NCBI GenBank assembly: GCA_014192065.1
Contig: BJHH01000002.1
Span: 434,001-498,000, forward strand
Direction: 5' to 3'
Length of the DNA stretch: 64,000 nt
From: Gemmatimonadota bacterium
GTDB taxonomy: Bacteria > Gemmatimonadota > Gemmatimonadetes > Gemmatimonadales > Gemmatimonadaceae
A model generated the notes under the pieces. That model worked only from the letters and a program-made list of their open reading frames with translations, made no database searches and was not told the DNA's origin. Positions within the stretch are counted from its first letter, which is position 1; every line of letters begins with the position of its first letter. Both the position numbers and the translations under genes were made by a program. Shown here piece after piece: positions 21,452 through 30,342 of the stretch.

Positions 21452-22726
21452 TTAGCCCGTCGCGGCACCGGAGCGAGCGCTCTCCATTTCCGCGATGGCC
21501 AGCGCGTGTTTCGCGTCGTCGAACGCGCCCTCGCTTCGCGAAATCACCAGCGTCGCCACACCATTACCAATGATGTTCGTGATCGCGCGCGCTTCGCTCA
21601 TGAACCGGTCCACGCCGAGCAGCAGCGCGAGTCCCTCGAGCGGAATCACCTGCATGGCGGAGAGGGTGCTTGCCAGGACGATGAACCCGGACCCCGTCAC
21701 CCCGGCTGCGCCTTTCGACGTGACCATCAACACCGCGAGTACGGTGAGCTGCTGTCCCAGCGACATCGGAATGTTGTAAACCTGTGCCAGGAAAATCGTC
21801 GCCATCGAGAGGTAGATGCTCGTTCCGTCGAGATTGAAGGAGTAACCGGTCGGCACGACGAGCCCCACCACGGGCCGCGCGCACCCATACCGCTCCAGTT
21901 TTTCCATCAGGCGCGGCAAGGCCGCTTCCGAGGACGACGTACCCAGCACAATCAGGATTTCGTCGCGAATGTATTTGAGGAACTGCCAGAGGCTGAAGCC
22001 GTACCAACGCGCGATCAGGTTCAGCACGATGAAAATGAACAGGAACATCGTGAGATAGACGTCGCCCATCAGCCGGAGCAGCGGCACGAGCGTCTTGAGC
22101 CCAAAGTTCCCCACCGTGAACGCCATCGCGCCAAAGGCGCCGAGCGGCGCCACCTTCATCACGATTTCCACCACGCGGAACATCGTCTCAAGGCCGCCCT
22201 CAGCGAGTTCCACCATCCGCTTGCCCCGCTGACCGAGTATGACGAGCGCGGCACCGAACAACATCGAGAAGAAGACCACCTGCAGGATGTTGCCGTCGGC
22301 AAGCGAGCGAATCACGCTCTCCGGCACGACCTGCACCAGAAAATCCGCGAACGACATCGCCTTGCCCTGGACGGCGTACGACGAAATGTCGCCCTTGGCC
22401 ATCGTACTCACGTCGAGACCCGCCCCGGGTTTCGTGATGTTGATCACGACGAGGCCAATCGCGATCGCGAACGTCGTCACGATTTCGAAATAGAGCAGCG
22501 CCTTCCCACCAACGCGCCCCACTTTCTTCATATCGGCGATGTTGGCGATGCCCAAAATGATCGTGAGAAAGATCACCGGACCGATCACCATCTTCACGAG
22601 CCGAATGAAGACGTCGCCGAGGAGCTTCATCTCCTTGGCGTGCGTCGGATCGACGATGCCGAAGATGACCCCGAGGGTGACGGCGACGAGAACCCGGAAC
22701 GTGAGGTTGTTGAGGAGGCGTTTCAT
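21452..22726 (-). CDS. dctA: C4-dicarboxylate:cation symporter DctA
   Basis: 424 residues of the SLC1/DAACS fold with the full DctA signature: LGTSSSEAALPRLM (hairpin 1), VPTGYSFNLDGTSIYLSMAT (substrate/cation site), KGAAGVTGSGFIVLA (hairpin 2) and LLGVDRFMSEARAITNIIGN. Known DctA proteins import succinate, fumarate and malate with protons or sodium. The ATG overlaps the stop of the GHL10 gene by four bases (ATGA), so translation is probably coupled. It is much closer to DctA than the first symporter at 3406. Confidence 0.95.
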   Translation of the reverse strand: MKRLLNNLTFRVLVAVTLGVIFGIVDPTHAKEMKLLGDVFIRLVKMVIGPVIFLTIILGIANIADMKKVGRVGGKALLYFEIVTTFAIAIGLVVINITKPGAGLDVSTMAKGDISSYAVQGKAMSFADFLVQVVPESVIRSLADGNILQVVFFSMLFGAALVILGQRGKRMVELAEGGLETMFRVVEIVMKVAPLGAFGAMAFTVGNFGLKTLVPLLRLMGDVYLTMFLFIFIVLNLIARWYGFSLWQFLKYIRDEILIVLGTSSSEAALPRLMEKLERYGCARPVVGLVVPTGYSFNLDGTSIYLSMATIFLAQVYNIPMSLGQQLTVLAVLMVTSKGAAGVTGSGFIVLASTLSAMQVIPLEGLALLLGVDRFMSEARAITNIIGNGVATLVISRSEGAFDDAKHALAIAEMESARSGAATG

Positions 22727-24288
22727 CGGAGGCGAATTGCCACCGGGGAGCCCGCCGCGCCAGTCCTGCCGACCGGCGTGAGCGCTAACACCTCAGGACC
22801 CGCGGCAGCTGGTCCGGCGAACGTCGTCATCGCCACCTCGGATAACTCCCCGTGAATGATGTACGTGCGCCACAACTCGGCAGCCCGCGTCTGCACGACC
22901 CACCACTGGACGTCGTCAGTGGATCGGCGGGCGATCGTCAGCACGGCGCCGCCCCGACCGGCTGTAATGCCGATCGCCGGCGTCCGCGGCACCGTTTGGC
23001 CCTTCCACGGCGACGCCGGCACGAGCGCCCGAGCATTGTACGGACCGGCCGCGAGGCGTGTAGCGACTGAATCGCGATCCTCGAGGAGGGCCGTCATCTG
23101 GAAATGCACGCTCCCGGCCGTCGTCGTCGCACCAGCGGCGGCCCGCGTGGTATCGATCTGTCGCAATATCTCGCCACTGCCCCAACGGGCTGGGGCGTCG
23201 CCAATCTTGTAGTCCGCCAGCCCGGGCCAGACATGGCGCAACTGGCTGTTCTGGGCATTCCACCAGCGCAATAGGTCGCCGAACGGTTGGCCTGCCTGCT
23301 CCACCCCCCAGTACAACTGCGGGACGAGGTAATCCACCCAGCCGTTCGCGAGCCACTTCTTTGCATCGGCAAAGATCTTCCCGTACGCGTCAAATCCGCG
23401 CACCATCGCCGGTTCGCCAGGCCGCCAGATGCCAAACGGACTGACGCCGAATTTCACCCAGGGTTTTGCCTTCGCAATTTCCGTGCGCAGCGTGTCAATC
23501 AACAGGTCCACGTTGCGGCGTCGCCAGTCATCGCGGCCGAGCTTCCCGCCCTGCTTCTTGTATCGCGCGAATGTCGCCGCATCGGGAAACGGAATCTCGC
23601 GCCGGCGCCGCAGTTCCGGATACGGATAGAAGTAGTCGTCAAGGTGAATCCCATCCACATCGTACCGCTTGAGCACATCCAGCACGACCCGCACCGTGCG
23701 GCGCATCACGGCCGGCTCCCCCGGATCGAACCAGGTGTACCGCCCGTATCGCCTCGCGTACGATGGGTACTGGATAGCCAAGTGAGGCTTGGCCAGCGGC
23801 CCTTTCGCCGTCGGATCTTTTGCGCGGTACGGGTTGAACCAGGCGTGAAGCTCAAGCCCGCGTACGTGGGCTTCCCGCACGGCGAACGCCAACGGATCCC
23901 ACGGCTCGTCCGGTGCGCGACCCTGTTTCCCTGTCAGGTACTCGGACCAGGGTTCAATCGTCGACGCATACAGCGCGTCGCCCGAAGGCCGCACCTGAAA
24001 CAGCACGGCGTTGAGTCCGGTGCGTTGAACGTGGTTCAGGATCCGGAGCAGCTCCAGTCGCGCACTGTCCGCTGGCAAGCCCGCGCGCGACGGCCAGTCC
24101 ATGTTGCCGACCGTCGCCACCCAGACGCCGCGAAACTCACGCGGCACCGACGGTGGAGCGCAGCTGGGATCCTCCTGCGGACAGGCTGAAAACTGTACGA
24201 CCGGCGCCATCGTGGCGGCGGTGGCTGGTGCGACCGGCTGCGCAGCAACGCGTGTGGTCACGAGCACCGCGACCACGATCAGTCGCAC
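22723..24288 (-). CDS. Family 10-like glycosyl hydrolase (GHL10/DUF187), secreted
   Basis: 521 residues from a GTG at 24288, chosen because it opens a signal peptide (VRLIVVAVLVTTRVAAQ) and lies 32 bases past the sco stop; the frame continues upstream across sco but that is shadow. GHL10 signatures are PREFRGVWVATVGNMDWPS, NAVLFQVRPSGDALY, EPWSEYLTGKQG, LHAWFNPYRA, YDVDGIHLDDYFYPYP and WVDYLVPQLYWG. This is a TIM barrel with Asp/Glu candidates in the DGIHLDDYF strand. Family members act on peptidoglycan-like or other envelope glycans in a few studied cases; the substrate here is unknown. The tail past residue 400 is probably a beta-sandwich. Confidence 0.88.
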   Translation of the reverse strand: MRLIVVAVLVTTRVAAQPVAPATAATMAPVVQFSACPQEDPSCAPPSVPREFRGVWVATVGNMDWPSRAGLPADSARLELLRILNHVQRTGLNAVLFQVRPSGDALYASTIEPWSEYLTGKQGRAPDEPWDPLAFAVREAHVRGLELHAWFNPYRAKDPTAKGPLAKPHLAIQYPSYARRYGRYTWFDPGEPAVMRRTVRVVLDVLKRYDVDGIHLDDYFYPYPELRRRREIPFPDAATFARYKKQGGKLGRDDWRRRNVDLLIDTLRTEIAKAKPWVKFGVSPFGIWRPGEPAMVRGFDAYGKIFADAKKWLANGWVDYLVPQLYWGVEQAGQPFGDLLRWWNAQNSQLRHVWPGLADYKIGDAPARWGSGEILRQIDTTRAAAGATTTAGSVHFQMTALLEDRDSVATRLAAGPYNARALVPASPWKGQTVPRTPAIGITAGRGGAVLTIARRSTDDVQWWVVQTRAAELWRTYIIHGELSEVAMTTFAGPAAAGPEVLALTPVGRTGAAGSPVAIRLR

Positions 24289-24320
24289 CGCCCGCGTGGT
24301 CGCCCGCTCGACGCAGCCGC

Positions 24321-24932
24321 TCAGCGGATCCGTCGCAGGTCCGACGCGATGTCCGCCGGGCTCGTGTTCGGCGGAAGAATCTCGCGAATCCGGCCCGCCC
24401 GATCGATCACGAATGTGCCGGCAGGGTGCCCCACGCCATACTCGCCTGGCTTCATCTCGGGCGTCGTCTCGTGACGGGCGGCGAATGTCCACGAGGCCTG
24501 GAGCGAATCGAGCTGCGCCCTCGTGGGGACGAGGCCGACGAACGTCGTATCGAATTGCCGAACGTAGTCCCGGACGACCTGCGGCGTGTCGCGTTCCGGA
24601 TCCACGCTCACGAAGATGAACCGCACGCCGCGACCAGCGGAGCCAAGCTCGGCATTGGCGCGTGCCCAGTCGGCGATCGTCGTCGGGCAGACATCCGGAC
24701 AGTGCGTGTACCCAAAGAAGAGGGCGACTGACCGCTTGCCCCGTTCATCATCGAGATCGATGATCGTACCCGCAGCATCGGCGATCCGCACCATCGGCGC
24801 TTCCGGTGGCGGATCAAGCACCATGCCGTGCAGCGGTGTGTCGGGCACAGCACACCCTTGGGCGCCACCCAACGCGCCAGCCAGAACCGCCAGAACCGCC
24901 AGTCCCGCCATCGTCCGCATCTGCATCTGCAT
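24321..24932 (-). CDS. SCO1/SenC family copper chaperone/thioredoxin-like protein
   Basis: 203 residues with a hydrophobic N-terminus and a thioredoxin fold. The copper site is complete: FFGYTHCPDVCPTTIADW supplies CxxxC and GVGHPAGTFVIDRAG supplies the His. SVDPERDTP is also conserved. SCO proteins deliver copper to the CuA centre of cytochrome c oxidase. No oxidase gene is in the window. The start is ambiguous: three ATG codons lie in a GCATCT repeat (24932, 24926, 24920), then one at 24911. A Cys at residue 27 (GGAQGC) only weakly resembles a lipobox. It heads the sco/GHL10/dctA minus-strand operon. Confidence 0.9.
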   Translation of the reverse strand: MQMQMRTMAGLAVLAVLAGALGGAQGCAVPDTPLHGMVLDPPPEAPMVRIADAAGTIIDLDDERGKRSVALFFGYTHCPDVCPTTIADWARANAELGSAGRGVRFIFVSVDPERDTPQVVRDYVRQFDTTFVGLVPTRAQLDSLQASWTFAARHETTPEMKPGEYGVGHPAGTFVIDRAGRIREILPPNTSPADIASDLRRIR

Positions 24933-25083: not shown

Positions 25084-26751
25084 GTGCATAACACACCCAT
25101 CCTGTTTCGTTCGCATGTCCGTCGCGCCATTACGCTGTGCGCCCTGATTGCCGTTGCCGCCTGCGCCGGAGCCACCGCGTCAGGGTCCGGTGGCGGCTCC
25201 TCATCGCCTGGGGGTGCCGCGCCGATCGTTGGCCCACCGCGCGGTACCGTGGTCGTGGTCGGCGGCGGCGGCATGGGGCCGGAGATCTACAAGGCATTCA
25301 TCGACGCGGCTGGCGGCCCCAATGCACTCATCGTCGACGTTCCGACTGCCGGTGGCGACACCATCTACCCAGCCGACTGGCGTGGCGCCAACGGCTTCAA
25401 GGCCGCCGGCGCGAAGAATGTGGTCGTGTTGCACTCGAATCCGGATCGCAAGGATCTCGCCAACTCCGACAGCTTCACGACGATCCTGAAGCGCGCTGGT
25501 GGCATCTGGTTTGAAGGCGGTCGACAGTTCCATCTCGTCGACTCGTACGGCGGGACAAAAACCGAGACGGAATTCATGAACGTCCTCGCCCGCGGTGGCG
25601 TGGTCGGTGGCTCGTCCGCCGGCGCATCGATCCTCGGCAGCTTCATGGTCCGTGGTGCACCGTCCAGCAACAACATGATCATGGAGTATCCGGGCTACAC
25701 ACGCGGCTTTGGATATCTCCGCAACACCGGTGTCGACCAGCACGTCGTCGCCCGAGAGCGGCTCGCCGATATCGCCGACTCGCTCATACCACGTCACCCC
25801 GAGATGCTCTTCATTTCAGAGGACGAAGGCACAGCGTGGGTCGTGAAGGGCGATGTCGGCGAAATCGTCGGTCGCAACAAGGCATTCGTCTACAACGGCA
25901 AGGATGCCAACGATCCCGGCAAGCCATTCACGACACTTTTTCCTGGCGACAAGTACCACTTAGGCGCGCGCAAGATCATCTCTCGCGCCCTCGATGAGTC
26001 GCCGCTGACGCACGCCTTCATCGACTCGGTTTTCGCGTCGATTGGCGGCGGCAAAGCCACCGTGCACATCGCGCAGGAGGGGCGTGTGCTAATCGCGAAA
26101 GGCTACGGCGTCGAGACGCAGCGGAAGTACACGCCCGTCACAGCCATCCCAAACTTCCCCATCGGCGCCATCGGCGACGGCTTTCTCGCCGCCGCGACGC
26201 TTGCGGTGGTGCGCGACGGCAAACTCAAGCTCGACGAACCGCTGTCATCCGGCGGTGGCACCACCATTCGCGAATACCTCACTGGCGCGAGCGCCGCTCC
26301 CGAGGGATCGAAGAAGGTTGCCCGGCTGCTCATCGAGCGCTCCGGTGGCAAACTTGCCGACCTGATGCAGCGTCGCGTCTTCTCGTCCATTGGTGGCCAG
26401 CGTACGCGTGCCGATGAAGACGGGGCGATCCTGTCGAACGTGGACGATCTCTACCGCTGGGAACTGGGACTCACGGCAAACACCGCCCTCACGATCTCCG
26501 GTCCCGACTCGATGTTCGCACCAAGTGGCGGCACGGGAAATGGCAACGGACTCGGCTGGCGTTCCGACGTCTATCGCGGAATCGCGCGGCACTCGGCCTT
26601 CGTTGCGCCAGATGGCAAACAGGGCGCATTCATCCGCGTTCCAGGACGCCGCGCCTCAATCATCATCCTCACCGACCGCACGGACTTTGACGCGCGCACG
26701 GCCGCCAGCCGCATCACCGACCGGCTGCTCTTCAACGCCAGTTCCCGGTGA
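25084..26751 (+). CDS. Lipoprotein fusion: cyanophycinase-like (peptidase S51) domain plus degenerate beta-lactamase-like domain
   Basis: 555 residues from a GTG at 25084 with GAGG eight bases before it. A lipobox (IAVAACAG) predicts a lipoprotein. Residues 55-320 match cyanophycinase/S51: VVVVGGGGMGPEIYKAFIDA, GGIWFEGGRQFHLVD and the nucleophile motif GGSSAGAS with Ser178. Residues 330-555 follow the serine beta-lactamase/penicillin-binding fold (VRDGKLKLDEPLSSGG, NVDDLYRWELGL, GRRASIIILTDR). The SxxK motif, expected at FPIGSxxK, reads FPIGAIGD, so both Ser and Lys are replaced (Ala362, Asp365). The N-terminal half should be an active Ser-dependent peptidase for aspartyl-type linkages; the C-terminal half looks non-catalytic. 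The amidase gene follows after 37 bases. Confidence 0.85.
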   Translation: MHNTPILFRSHVRRAITLCALIAVAACAGATASGSGGGSSSPGGAAPIVGPPRGTVVVVGGGGMGPEIYKAFIDAAGGPNALIVDVPTAGGDTIYPADWRGANGFKAAGAKNVVVLHSNPDRKDLANSDSFTTILKRAGGIWFEGGRQFHLVDSYGGTKTETEFMNVLARGGVVGGSSAGASILGSFMVRGAPSSNNMIMEYPGYTRGFGYLRNTGVDQHVVARERLADIADSLIPRHPEMLFISEDEGTAWVVKGDVGEIVGRNKAFVYNGKDANDPGKPFTTLFPGDKYHLGARKIISRALDESPLTHAFIDSVFASIGGGKATVHIAQEGRVLIAKGYGVETQRKYTPVTAIPNFPIGAIGDGFLAAATLAVVRDGKLKLDEPLSSGGGTTIREYLTGASAAPEGSKKVARLLIERSGGKLADLMQRRVFSSIGGQRTRADEDGAILSNVDDLYRWELGLTANTALTISGPDSMFAPSGGTGNGNGLGWRSDVYRGIARHSAFVAPDGKQGAFIRVPGRRASIIILTDRTDFDARTAASRITDRLLFNASSR

Positions 26752-26788: not shown

Positions 26789-28489
26789 ATGACGTACGAC
26801 CTGCGTTCCCTGTCGCTCCCTCGGCTCGGAAGCCGCGCGCTGGCGTTCCTCGTCACGCTACTCGAAAACCGATTCGTCGGCCCAACGCTGATCGAGAAAC
26901 TCAAGCGGGACGCAGGCATCACGCGTCTCCGCACGCTCGACATTGCGGAACCGCCGACCTATTTCCCGACCCACAGTTCCGAAGATCCGGGCATTCCAGC
27001 GCTTGCCCAGGTCGACCCAGACGACAGCCCCTACAGCGACCAACCGTCGGCACCTCCGCCCCCTCGGGGATTTCAGTTTCCTGGCGCCGAGCAGTACATC
27101 GCCGCGTTCCGGTCAGGCCGAATTACTCCGCGTGATATCGCCCAGAACTTCGTCACGCAGTGGCAGGCCAGTGATGCGCACGATCGGCCGCTCCGAGCCT
27201 TCATCGCCGTGCGTGCGGATGACCTCGCTGCTCAGGCCGATGCGAGCACGGCGCGTTGGAAGGCTGGCAAGCCGCTCGGACCCTGGGATGGCGTTCCGAT
27301 CGCCGTGAAGGACGAACTGCACGCGATCGGATACCCGCTGACCGTCGGGACCCGCCTACTCGGTGGTGCACCGTCGACCATGGATGCCACGGTGGTCGCG
27401 CGGATGCGGGCCGCGGGCGCGCTCATCGTCGGCAAGGCGAATATGCATGAGATCGGCATCAACATCACCGGACTCAATCCGCATTACGGCACCACACGCA
27501 ACCCGTACGACGACGCGTACCACACCGGCGGATCGTCAAGCGGCCCTGCCACCGCGGTAGCGAGTGGGCTTGTACCGGTCGCCATCGGCGCAGACGGCGG
27601 TGGCTCGATCCGCATTCCCGCCGCGTTTTGCGGCCTCGTGGGCATCAAGCCAACCTTCGGCCGCGTGAGCGAACATGGCGCGGCCCCGCTGGTCTGGAGT
27701 GTCGCACACCTCGGGCCCATCGCGGGAACCGTTCGCGACTGCGCGGCCGCGTACGCCCTGATGGCTGGCGAAGACCCGCTCGACCCAACCTCGCGCGCGC
27801 ATCCATCTGTTGCCCTCGATGTCGCGGTGCCGGGCTCGCTGCGCGGTATCAGGATGGGCGTGTACTGGCCCTGGTTTCGGCACGCCAGCAAGGACGTCGT
27901 GGAACGATGTGAGGCGATGGTTCGTGAATTCTCCAGACTTGGCGCCACGCTCATCGAAGTCGACATTCCCGAACTCGATCTCGAACGCGTCGCCCACGTG
28001 GCCGCGATTACCGGCGAAATAGCGGCCGCCATGGCGCTGCATCATCCGGCGAGGCGAACGGAGTTTTCGCTCGACACGCGCACCAACCTGGCGATTGCGC
28101 GCTCGTTCTCCGCCGCGGAACTCGTCACCGCAGCGCGCGTTCGCACACGAGCGATGACGCACTGGAAGGCCGCGTTCCGCGACGTACACATCATCATCAC
28201 GCCGGCCACAGGACAGGTCGCACCGCGTATCAATCCCGCCGCGCTCGTCCGCGGCGAGTCCGATCTCTCGATGACCACGGAGGTGATGCGGTTTGCGTTT
28301 CCGCCGAATCTCACCGGCCATCCGGCGATCAGTTTCCCAGCAGGATATGATGCCAGCGGCCTGCCGATCGGACTTCAGGTCATCGGTCGGCCATGGAGTG
28401 AACGGCTGCTCTTCCGAGTGGCGGCCATGGCAGAACAACTCGTCGATCGGCGCAAGCCGAAGCGCTGGTATCCACTACTCGACGCATAA
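26789..28489 (+). CDS. Amidase signature family enzyme
   Basis: 566 residues from the ATG at 26789; the frame extends upstream into the previous gene but without coding character. The amidase-signature Ser-cisSer-Lys triad is visible: GVPIAVKDELHAIG (Lys), HTGGSSSGPATAVASG (cis-Ser) and ADGGGSIRIPAAFCGLVGIK (nucleophile Ser). An N-terminal extension of about 110 residues precedes the catalytic fold, as in fatty-acid-amide-hydrolase-like members. There is no signal peptide. It would hydrolyse an amide to acid and ammonia; the substrate is unknown. Co-transcription with the S51 fusion is likely, and a terminator follows at 28514. Confidence 0.9.
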   Translation: MTYDLRSLSLPRLGSRALAFLVTLLENRFVGPTLIEKLKRDAGITRLRTLDIAEPPTYFPTHSSEDPGIPALAQVDPDDSPYSDQPSAPPPPRGFQFPGAEQYIAAFRSGRITPRDIAQNFVTQWQASDAHDRPLRAFIAVRADDLAAQADASTARWKAGKPLGPWDGVPIAVKDELHAIGYPLTVGTRLLGGAPSTMDATVVARMRAAGALIVGKANMHEIGINITGLNPHYGTTRNPYDDAYHTGGSSSGPATAVASGLVPVAIGADGGGSIRIPAAFCGLVGIKPTFGRVSEHGAAPLVWSVAHLGPIAGTVRDCAAAYALMAGEDPLDPTSRAHPSVALDVAVPGSLRGIRMGVYWPWFRHASKDVVERCEAMVREFSRLGATLIEVDIPELDLERVAHVAAITGEIAAAMALHHPARRTEFSLDTRTNLAIARSFSAAELVTAARVRTRAMTHWKAAFRDVHIIITPATGQVAPRINPAALVRGESDLSMTTEVMRFAFPPNLTGHPAISFPAGYDASGLPIGLQVIGRPWSERLLFRVAAMAEQLVDRRKPKRWYPLLDA

Positions 28490-28941: not shown

Positions 28942-30342
28942 ATGCCGTTGATCGTGCGCTGGTCCCTCGTCGCCGCTTCCGCGCTCGGCGTCCTCGCCGT
29001 TCCGGTGCCGCAAGGCATCACGCCGGAATCGTGGCATCTCTTTGCCATCTTCATCGCCACGATCATTGGTTCCATCGTACGGCCGGTCCCGGCCGGCGCC
29101 GTGGTGTTCCTCGGTGTTGCCGCCCTCGCCATCACGAAAACCATGCCGACGCGCGAAGCGCTCGCCGGCTACGCCGACCCGTTGGTCTGGCTCGTGCTGT
29201 GCGCCTTTTTCATGTCGCGTGGCGTGTTGCACACGGGACTGGGCCGGCGCATCGCGTACCTCTTCATTCGGGCCATCGGGAAGAGTTCGCTCGGTCTGTC
29301 GTATGCGCTCACGTCAACTGACACCCTGCTCGCGGGATTCCTGCCGAGCAACAGCGCACGCTGCGGTGGCGTGATCTTCCCCATCGCGCGCAGCCTGGCT
29401 GAGGCATACGATTCGAAACCAGGAACCACTGCACGCCGCCTCGGGGCGTTCCTGCTCGTCACGATATACCAGAGCGACGTGATCGCCTGCGCGATGTTCC
29501 TGACGGGCCAGGCGTCAAATGTGATTGTCGCCAAGCTGGCAATGCAATCGGCGAACATCGACCTGAACTACTCAACCTGGCTCCTCGGGTCATCGGTGCC
29601 GGGCATCCTGTCCCTCGCATTCATTCCCTGGCTGATCTTCAAGCTCTACCCGCCGACCGTCACGCATACCCCCGACGCCACGCGCCTCGCCACGAAAGAA
29701 CTGGAACGCATCGGGCCGATGAAGCGCAACGAGCGCATGATGCTCTGTGTTTTTGCGCTCGTGGCTGGCCTCTGGATGACCGGACCGCTGCACCAGATCG
29801 AGTACGCGGTGGTCGCATTGCTTGGCGTCTGCCTGCTCTTCCTCACCGGCGTGCTCAGTTGGGATGACATCATCAGCGAGCGCGGCGCCTGGGATGTGTT
29901 TCTCTGGTACGGCGGTGTCGTGCGAATGGCCGAGGCTGTCGGCAAGTCCGGCCTGACCGAAAAATTCGCCCAGTCATCAGCCGGCATGACCTCTGGGCTC
30001 GCCTGGGGCGCAGCGCTCGCGATCCTGCTGCTCATCTACTTCTATGCGCATTACGGATTCGCGAGCATCACGGCCCACGTGACGGCCATGTTCGTTCCCT
30101 TCGTCGCGGTGCTCATCGCCGCTGGCACGCCACCATTTCTCGCCGTCGTGATGCTGGCGTATTTCTCGAACCTGTCTGCATCGCTGACGCATTACGGCAC
30201 GACCACCGCGCCCATCTACTTCGGTGCCAACTACATCACACAGCGTGACTGGTGGCGACTGGGACTCTACGTCTCCTTCGCGACAATCACCATCTGGTCG
30301 GTCGTTGGAATGGCCTGGTGGAAGTTCTTGGGATGGTGGTAG
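28942..30342 (+). CDS. DASS family transporter (2-oxoglutarate/malate translocator-like)
   Basis: 466 residues with about a dozen hydrophobic segments. The two conserved hairpin-tip motifs of the DASS family are present: FLPSNSARCGGVIFPIARSL near residue 130 (usually SNT; here SNS) and YFSNLSASLTHYGTTTAPI near residue 410. The second motif and the overall pattern are closest to the plant DiT1/bacterial 2-oxoglutarate/malate translocator branch rather than sodium-citrate carriers. The role is import or exchange of dicarboxylates. It lies just upstream of glutamine synthetase III, a pairing that links 2-oxoglutarate supply and nitrogen assimilation (inference). Confidence 0.9.
   Translation: MPLIVRWSLVAASALGVLAVPVPQGITPESWHLFAIFIATIIGSIVRPVPAGAVVFLGVAALAITKTMPTREALAGYADPLVWLVLCAFFMSRGVLHTGLGRRIAYLFIRAIGKSSLGLSYALTSTDTLLAGFLPSNSARCGGVIFPIARSLAEAYDSKPGTTARRLGAFLLVTIYQSDVIACAMFLTGQASNVIVAKLAMQSANIDLNYSTWLLGSSVPGILSLAFIPWLIFKLYPPTVTHTPDATRLATKELERIGPMKRNERMMLCVFALVAGLWMTGPLHQIEYAVVALLGVCLLFLTGVLSWDDIISERGAWDVFLWYGGVVRMAEAVGKSGLTEKFAQSSAGMTSGLAWGAALAILLLIYFYAHYGFASITAHVTAMFVPFVAVLIAAGTPPFLAVVMLAYFSNLSASLTHYGTTTAPIYFGANYITQRDWWRLGLYVSFATITIWSVVGMAWWKFLGWW

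Follow-up and report, generated by a model that had tools for sequence, protein, structure and literature searches.

A predicted exported S51 peptidase fused to a catalytically dead beta-lactamase domain in Gemmatimonadota

The fusion gene and its neighbours

The window, that is, the whole stretch of 64,000 nucleotides analysed here, contains on its forward strand a gene (25084..26751) encoding a fusion of an S51 peptidase domain and a dead beta-lactamase domain, 555 aa in length and predicted to be exported. The ORF was confirmed: it starts with GTG at 25084, preceded by GAGG at a distance of about 10 bases, within a frame open from 24946 on. In the translation, a signal peptide (25084..25164, + strand) with a lipobox-like V-A-A-C (residues 24–27, the last being Cys27) was recognised by eye, by which the product is a predicted lipoprotein and may be anchored in the membrane. 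The Cys is absent there in some homologues, and residues 1–43 of the structure model have pLDDT below 50.

The next gene, after a gap of 37 bases, encodes an amidase-signature enzyme of 566 aa (26789..28489, + strand), whose Ser-Ser-Lys motifs are intact as judged by eye. This adjacent amidase had already been pointed out in the preliminary description, and the neighbourhood proved to be kept in 10/10 copies of the locus, which has the order GHL10 and/or SCO1 gene, fusion, amidase; the fusion paralogues found elsewhere in the relatives have no amidase neighbour, and the neighbours compared at the paralogue loci are mixed and share no common pathway. The fusion and the amidase may be co-transcribed and functionally linked. 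Since no signal peptide is obvious in the amidase, it would work in the cytoplasm on imported products, away from the lipoprotein. The listed GHL10 (22723-24492) and SCO1/SenC (24321-24932) ORFs, both on the reverse strand, overlap, and the true GHL10 start is probably downstream.

The cluster is flanked by an SDF dicarboxylate/amino-acid symporter (21452-22726, − strand) and a DASS-type carrier (28942-30342, + strand), the latter with a counterpart at this position in L075, L076 and L078. SDF and DASS are families that include Na+-coupled dicarboxylate/amino-acid transporters. In another Gemmatimonadota family, unfused S51 genes (L058–L062 and L065) have a sodium:solute symporter gene on either side, the two symporters belonging to one transporter family. 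Taken together, the SDF and DASS flanks and these symporter neighbours suggest peptide or amino-acid scavenging. Published scavenging clusters combine cyanophycinase, isoaspartyl dipeptidases and transporters (PMC10206079). Adjoining the window fusion no isoaspartyl dipeptidase gene was found, the genome has no IadA above the cut-off, and its one IaaA-type Asparaginase_2 protein lies away from the fusion locus.

The S51 half and its substrate pocket

The S51 peptidase (cyanophycinase-like) domain covers residues ~53–301 (25240..25986, + strand), as assigned from Pfam, structure matches and alignment with CphB. Pfam Peptidase_S51 (PF03575) matches residues 67–258 (E 6e-10, 39.5 bits against a gathering score of 23.9), and the predicted S51 half matches 7uqv (Z 28.3) and the cyanophycinase 3en0 (Z 27.4). 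The nucleophile Ser178 (codon 25615..25617, + strand, placed by alignment) lies within GGSSAGAS, and together with His220 and Glu248 it corresponds to Ser132, His174 and Glu201 of CphB, so that the S51-like lipoprotein with an intact nucleophile that had been proposed before is borne out, as a prediction, with a full Ser-His-Glu triad. Judged from these residues, the S51 catalytic centre looks competent.

According to the functional-residue list of CphB (PMC3235067), 8/9 residues are kept in the window protein. Among the binding residues 5/6 are kept (Gln101, Asp172, Gln173, Arg178 and Arg180), the exception being Arg183, whose equivalent is Asp229; this position is Asp in 71/71 S51 homologues, namely those collected from the phylum, fused and unfused. 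Moreover, the NCBIfam cyanophycinase equivalog TIGR02069 is not reached (85.6 bits against a cut-off of 126.6). Because Asp229 is invariant, the term "cyanophycinase-like" used at first needs a qualifier, and the protein is no proven cyanophycinase; with Asp at the place of CphB Arg183 in every member, cyanophycin or a beta-aspartyl peptide may not be the substrate.

In summary, the likeness to the CphB/CphE cyanophycinases (MEROPS S51; PDB 3en0, 7uqv, 7uqw) lies in the fold (Z 27–28), the triad, the five binding-residue equivalents and export, which CphE has and which is predicted for the window protein, whereas the differences lie in Asp229, the fused second domain, the score under the NCBIfam cut-off and the genomic context, the window genome having no cyanophycin synthetase above the cut-off. 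A cyanophycin-producer context was rejected, neither CphA nor IadA being found above the cut-off. The second S51 gene of the genome (G000:C1) was set aside as another S51 type by alignment, without the DQH and Arg motifs.

The beta-lactamase half in dead, active and shrunken fusions

Residues 302–555 (25987..26748, + strand) form a reduced, catalytically dead beta-lactamase/PBP-like domain according to Pfam, the model and the alignment. Pfam PF00144 matches residues 325–540 (E 1e-9, 38.1 bits against a gathering score of 27). An AlphaFold2 model, built on an alignment of 45 homologues, has pLDDT 86.4 and pTM 0.85, with pLDDT above 90 over most of residues 301–470 and 490–550. In this model residues 301–555 match PBP-like serine beta-lactamases, the best described being 2qmi (Z 20.9; residues 308–554, 239 residues aligned, rmsd 3.8 Å) and ClbP (4e6x, Z 20.7), and the C-terminal half also matches class C beta-lactamases. 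The high pLDDT and the matches at Z ~21 thus show a real beta-lactamase fold and no chance match.

The catalytic motifs are lost. Residues 358–369 read FPIGAIGDGFLA, with Ala362 and Asp365 at the SxxK position (A362-I-G-D365, 26167..26178, + strand, by alignment); besides this change from SxxK to AxxD, a deletion has removed YxN and HTG has disappeared, so that the window domain has none of the three motifs of an active serine beta-lactamase or DD-peptidase. The preliminary description had claimed a beta-lactamase fold with a dead SxxK site, and both parts were confirmed, the fold by prediction of the full protein, with a loss larger than it had supposed. Compared with the PF00144 hydrolases (2qmi, ClbP, class C), the likeness is one of fold over residues 301–555 (Z ~20), with an identical order of elements where these exist, whereas the window domain lacks SxxK, YxN and [KH]TG and is ~90 residues shorter.

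Searching for the fusion in other Gemmatimonadota, as had been proposed, yielded 52 distinct fusions, near relatives being reached by a scan of genome contigs. Dead forms make up 47/52, the window included; SxxK and YxN are missing in 47/47, and HTG was seen in none of them, three of the 47 being cut by contig ends beyond the first two motifs. No relocated S-x-x-K lies within 25–30 residues of the aligned site in the 47 dead-clade homologues scanned, so the alignment earlier suggested as a check gave no shifted, intact motif. The other five (L036, L038, L045, L048 and L074) are active forms of ~965 aa, which keep SVTK/YSN/HTG in 5/5 and end in a C-terminal YCF48/BNR propeller; in the two that were scanned, PF00144 gives E 2e-67 (L036) and 2e-61. 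They share with the window the locus, the downstream amidase and the first two domains, but the window has neither their SVTK/YSN/HTG nor their propeller. The beta-lactamase domain measures ~330 residues in active forms, ~245 in the window and ~180 in L043-like forms. Even the smallest form (L043), when modelled, still has the beta-lactamase core fold (Z 16.0 to 2qmi), and the fold core is retained in 44 full-length dead rows. Certain residues are fixed in the dead clade and differ from the active forms: Q346, K/R348, Y/F349, P356, Y/F506, F/W516 and D536. The dead module is genuine and lineage-wide, kept across a bacterial family. In the literature searched, no description of an S51–beta-lactamase fusion was found.

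History, selection and possible role

In the S51-domain tree, drawn with a midpoint root and with the unfused S51 proteins of other families on the opposite side, the 47 dead fusions form one clade (support 100/100) and the active forms branch earlier; it is proposed that catalysis was lost once, in the ancestor of the dead clade. At the amidase locus, both states occur: active copies in L036, L038 and three of another genus, dead copies in the window and L075–L078. The S51 part of L036 is 69–71% identical to the other genus versus 60–63% to L075–L078, and its beta-lactamase part 60% versus 35–39%, whereas its propeller is reversed, with 68–71% to L075–L078 versus 55–59% to the other genus. 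The amidase branch lengths side with the propeller, and an AU test on the S51 tree rejects the same-genus locus copies as one group (p 8e-5). The simplest account is a gene mosaic, in which the S51–beta-lactamase part of a dead paralogue replaced the resident part in place, the downstream amidase being native; replacement in the opposite direction, or repeated propeller loss with relocation, is less likely. Among the locus copies, only that of the window lacks the C-terminal YCF48-like propeller, which on the simplest account was lost after the replacement; elsewhere in the window genome no close copy of it was found, just distant BNR-like proteins. In two genomes, the fusion at the amidase locus is accompanied by a paralogue elsewhere (G294: L035, L078; G063: L084, L036), and of the G063 paralogues one is active and one dead.

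The dead domain is under continuing purifying selection. Its omega in close pairs is 0.13 (L093/L094), 0.06 (L020/L088), 0.14 (L080/L011), 0.22 (L047/L049), 0.20 (L041/L040) and 0.17 (L050/L053), the corresponding value for the active domain, in the close pair L036/L038, being 0.12; the S51 half gives 0.02–0.12 in the same close pairs, and the dead half changes faster in protein. For the window against its four nearest relatives omega is 0.15–0.31 (nearest 0.15), although dS exceeds 1 in these comparisons and the Nei-Gojobori estimate is crude. Selection and the newly fixed residues argue, at the level of sequence, for a retained but changed role over free decay.

The reading preferred here, with a probability of roughly 0.6, is an exported and probably membrane-anchored S51 peptidase for Asp-type bonds with a retired, repurposed beta-lactamase module. 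Outside the cytoplasm, the serine peptidase would cut alpha- or beta-aspartyl peptide bonds; the C-terminal module, whose ancestor was a serine beta-lactamase/PBP-like hydrolase, would serve it non-catalytically, either by substrate docking or by packing or oligomerisation; and the cell would import the products and process them further, in part through the neighbouring amidase. Peptidase activity, Asp specificity and the accessory role are inferred from the features above. That the beta-lactamase half is instead a decaying passenger, merely harmless to the S51 half, would explain the stepwise shortening (~330 to 245 to 180 residues), the quicker protein change and the loss of the window propeller, and since large deletions are tolerated in some dead lineages, slow erosion fits as well as reuse; but omega values far below 1 in all close pairs, residues fixed solely in the dead clade and the fold core of the full-length dead rows make a mere passenger unlikely.

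A binding role of the dead module, as first suggested, fits the selection and the new residues, and a structural or oligomerisation role would fit equally. Its narrower version, in which peptidoglycan or D-amino-acid stem peptides would be held in the former PBP cleft, agrees with the nearest folds, which are PBP-like/D-peptidase enzymes (2qmi, ClbP and the D-aminopeptidase 1ei5), and with new conserved aromatic and basic residues adjoining the former catalytic motifs in sequence; yet it is rather improbable, as nothing found points to peptidoglycan as ligand and the cleft has largely lost the helical part that in active relatives makes up one of its sides. Least probable by far is continued catalysis by this half from an active site formed elsewhere in it: the conserved polar residues T353, D454, R458 and R518 remain, but most such residues also occur in the active forms and appear to be structural, and the dead clade has lost each of the three catalytic motifs, with no conserved Ser/Lys pair in their place. 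Beyond the preferred reading of a repurposed module, a more specific proposal is possible, though somewhat doubtful: the dead domain may have become specialised in substrate recognition or assembly on behalf of an S51 peptidase whose specificity pocket is new and charge-reversed (Asp229), in an undescribed class of exported peptide scavengers, the active version having been replaced in place by the dead one, in the lineage of the window, through paralogue recombination.

Pseudo-enzyme domains are common. Here related genomes preserve a single fused beta-lactamase domain in its active, dead and shrunken states alongside one another, which makes it possible to read, and to test, in what order catalysis was lost, new residues became conserved and the domain shrank. 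At the same time, this is a phylum-wide S51 subfamily with a pocket unlike that of cyanophycinase, and Gemmatimonadota proteins annotated automatically as "cyanophycinase" may therefore have been assigned the wrong substrate. A plasmid search for the fusion (PLSDB) gave one full-length match, on the 1.04-Mb replicon of Gemmatirosa kalamazoonensis, a plasmid according to PLSDB, where the dead fusion L082 lies at NZ_CP007130.1:926174-927592.
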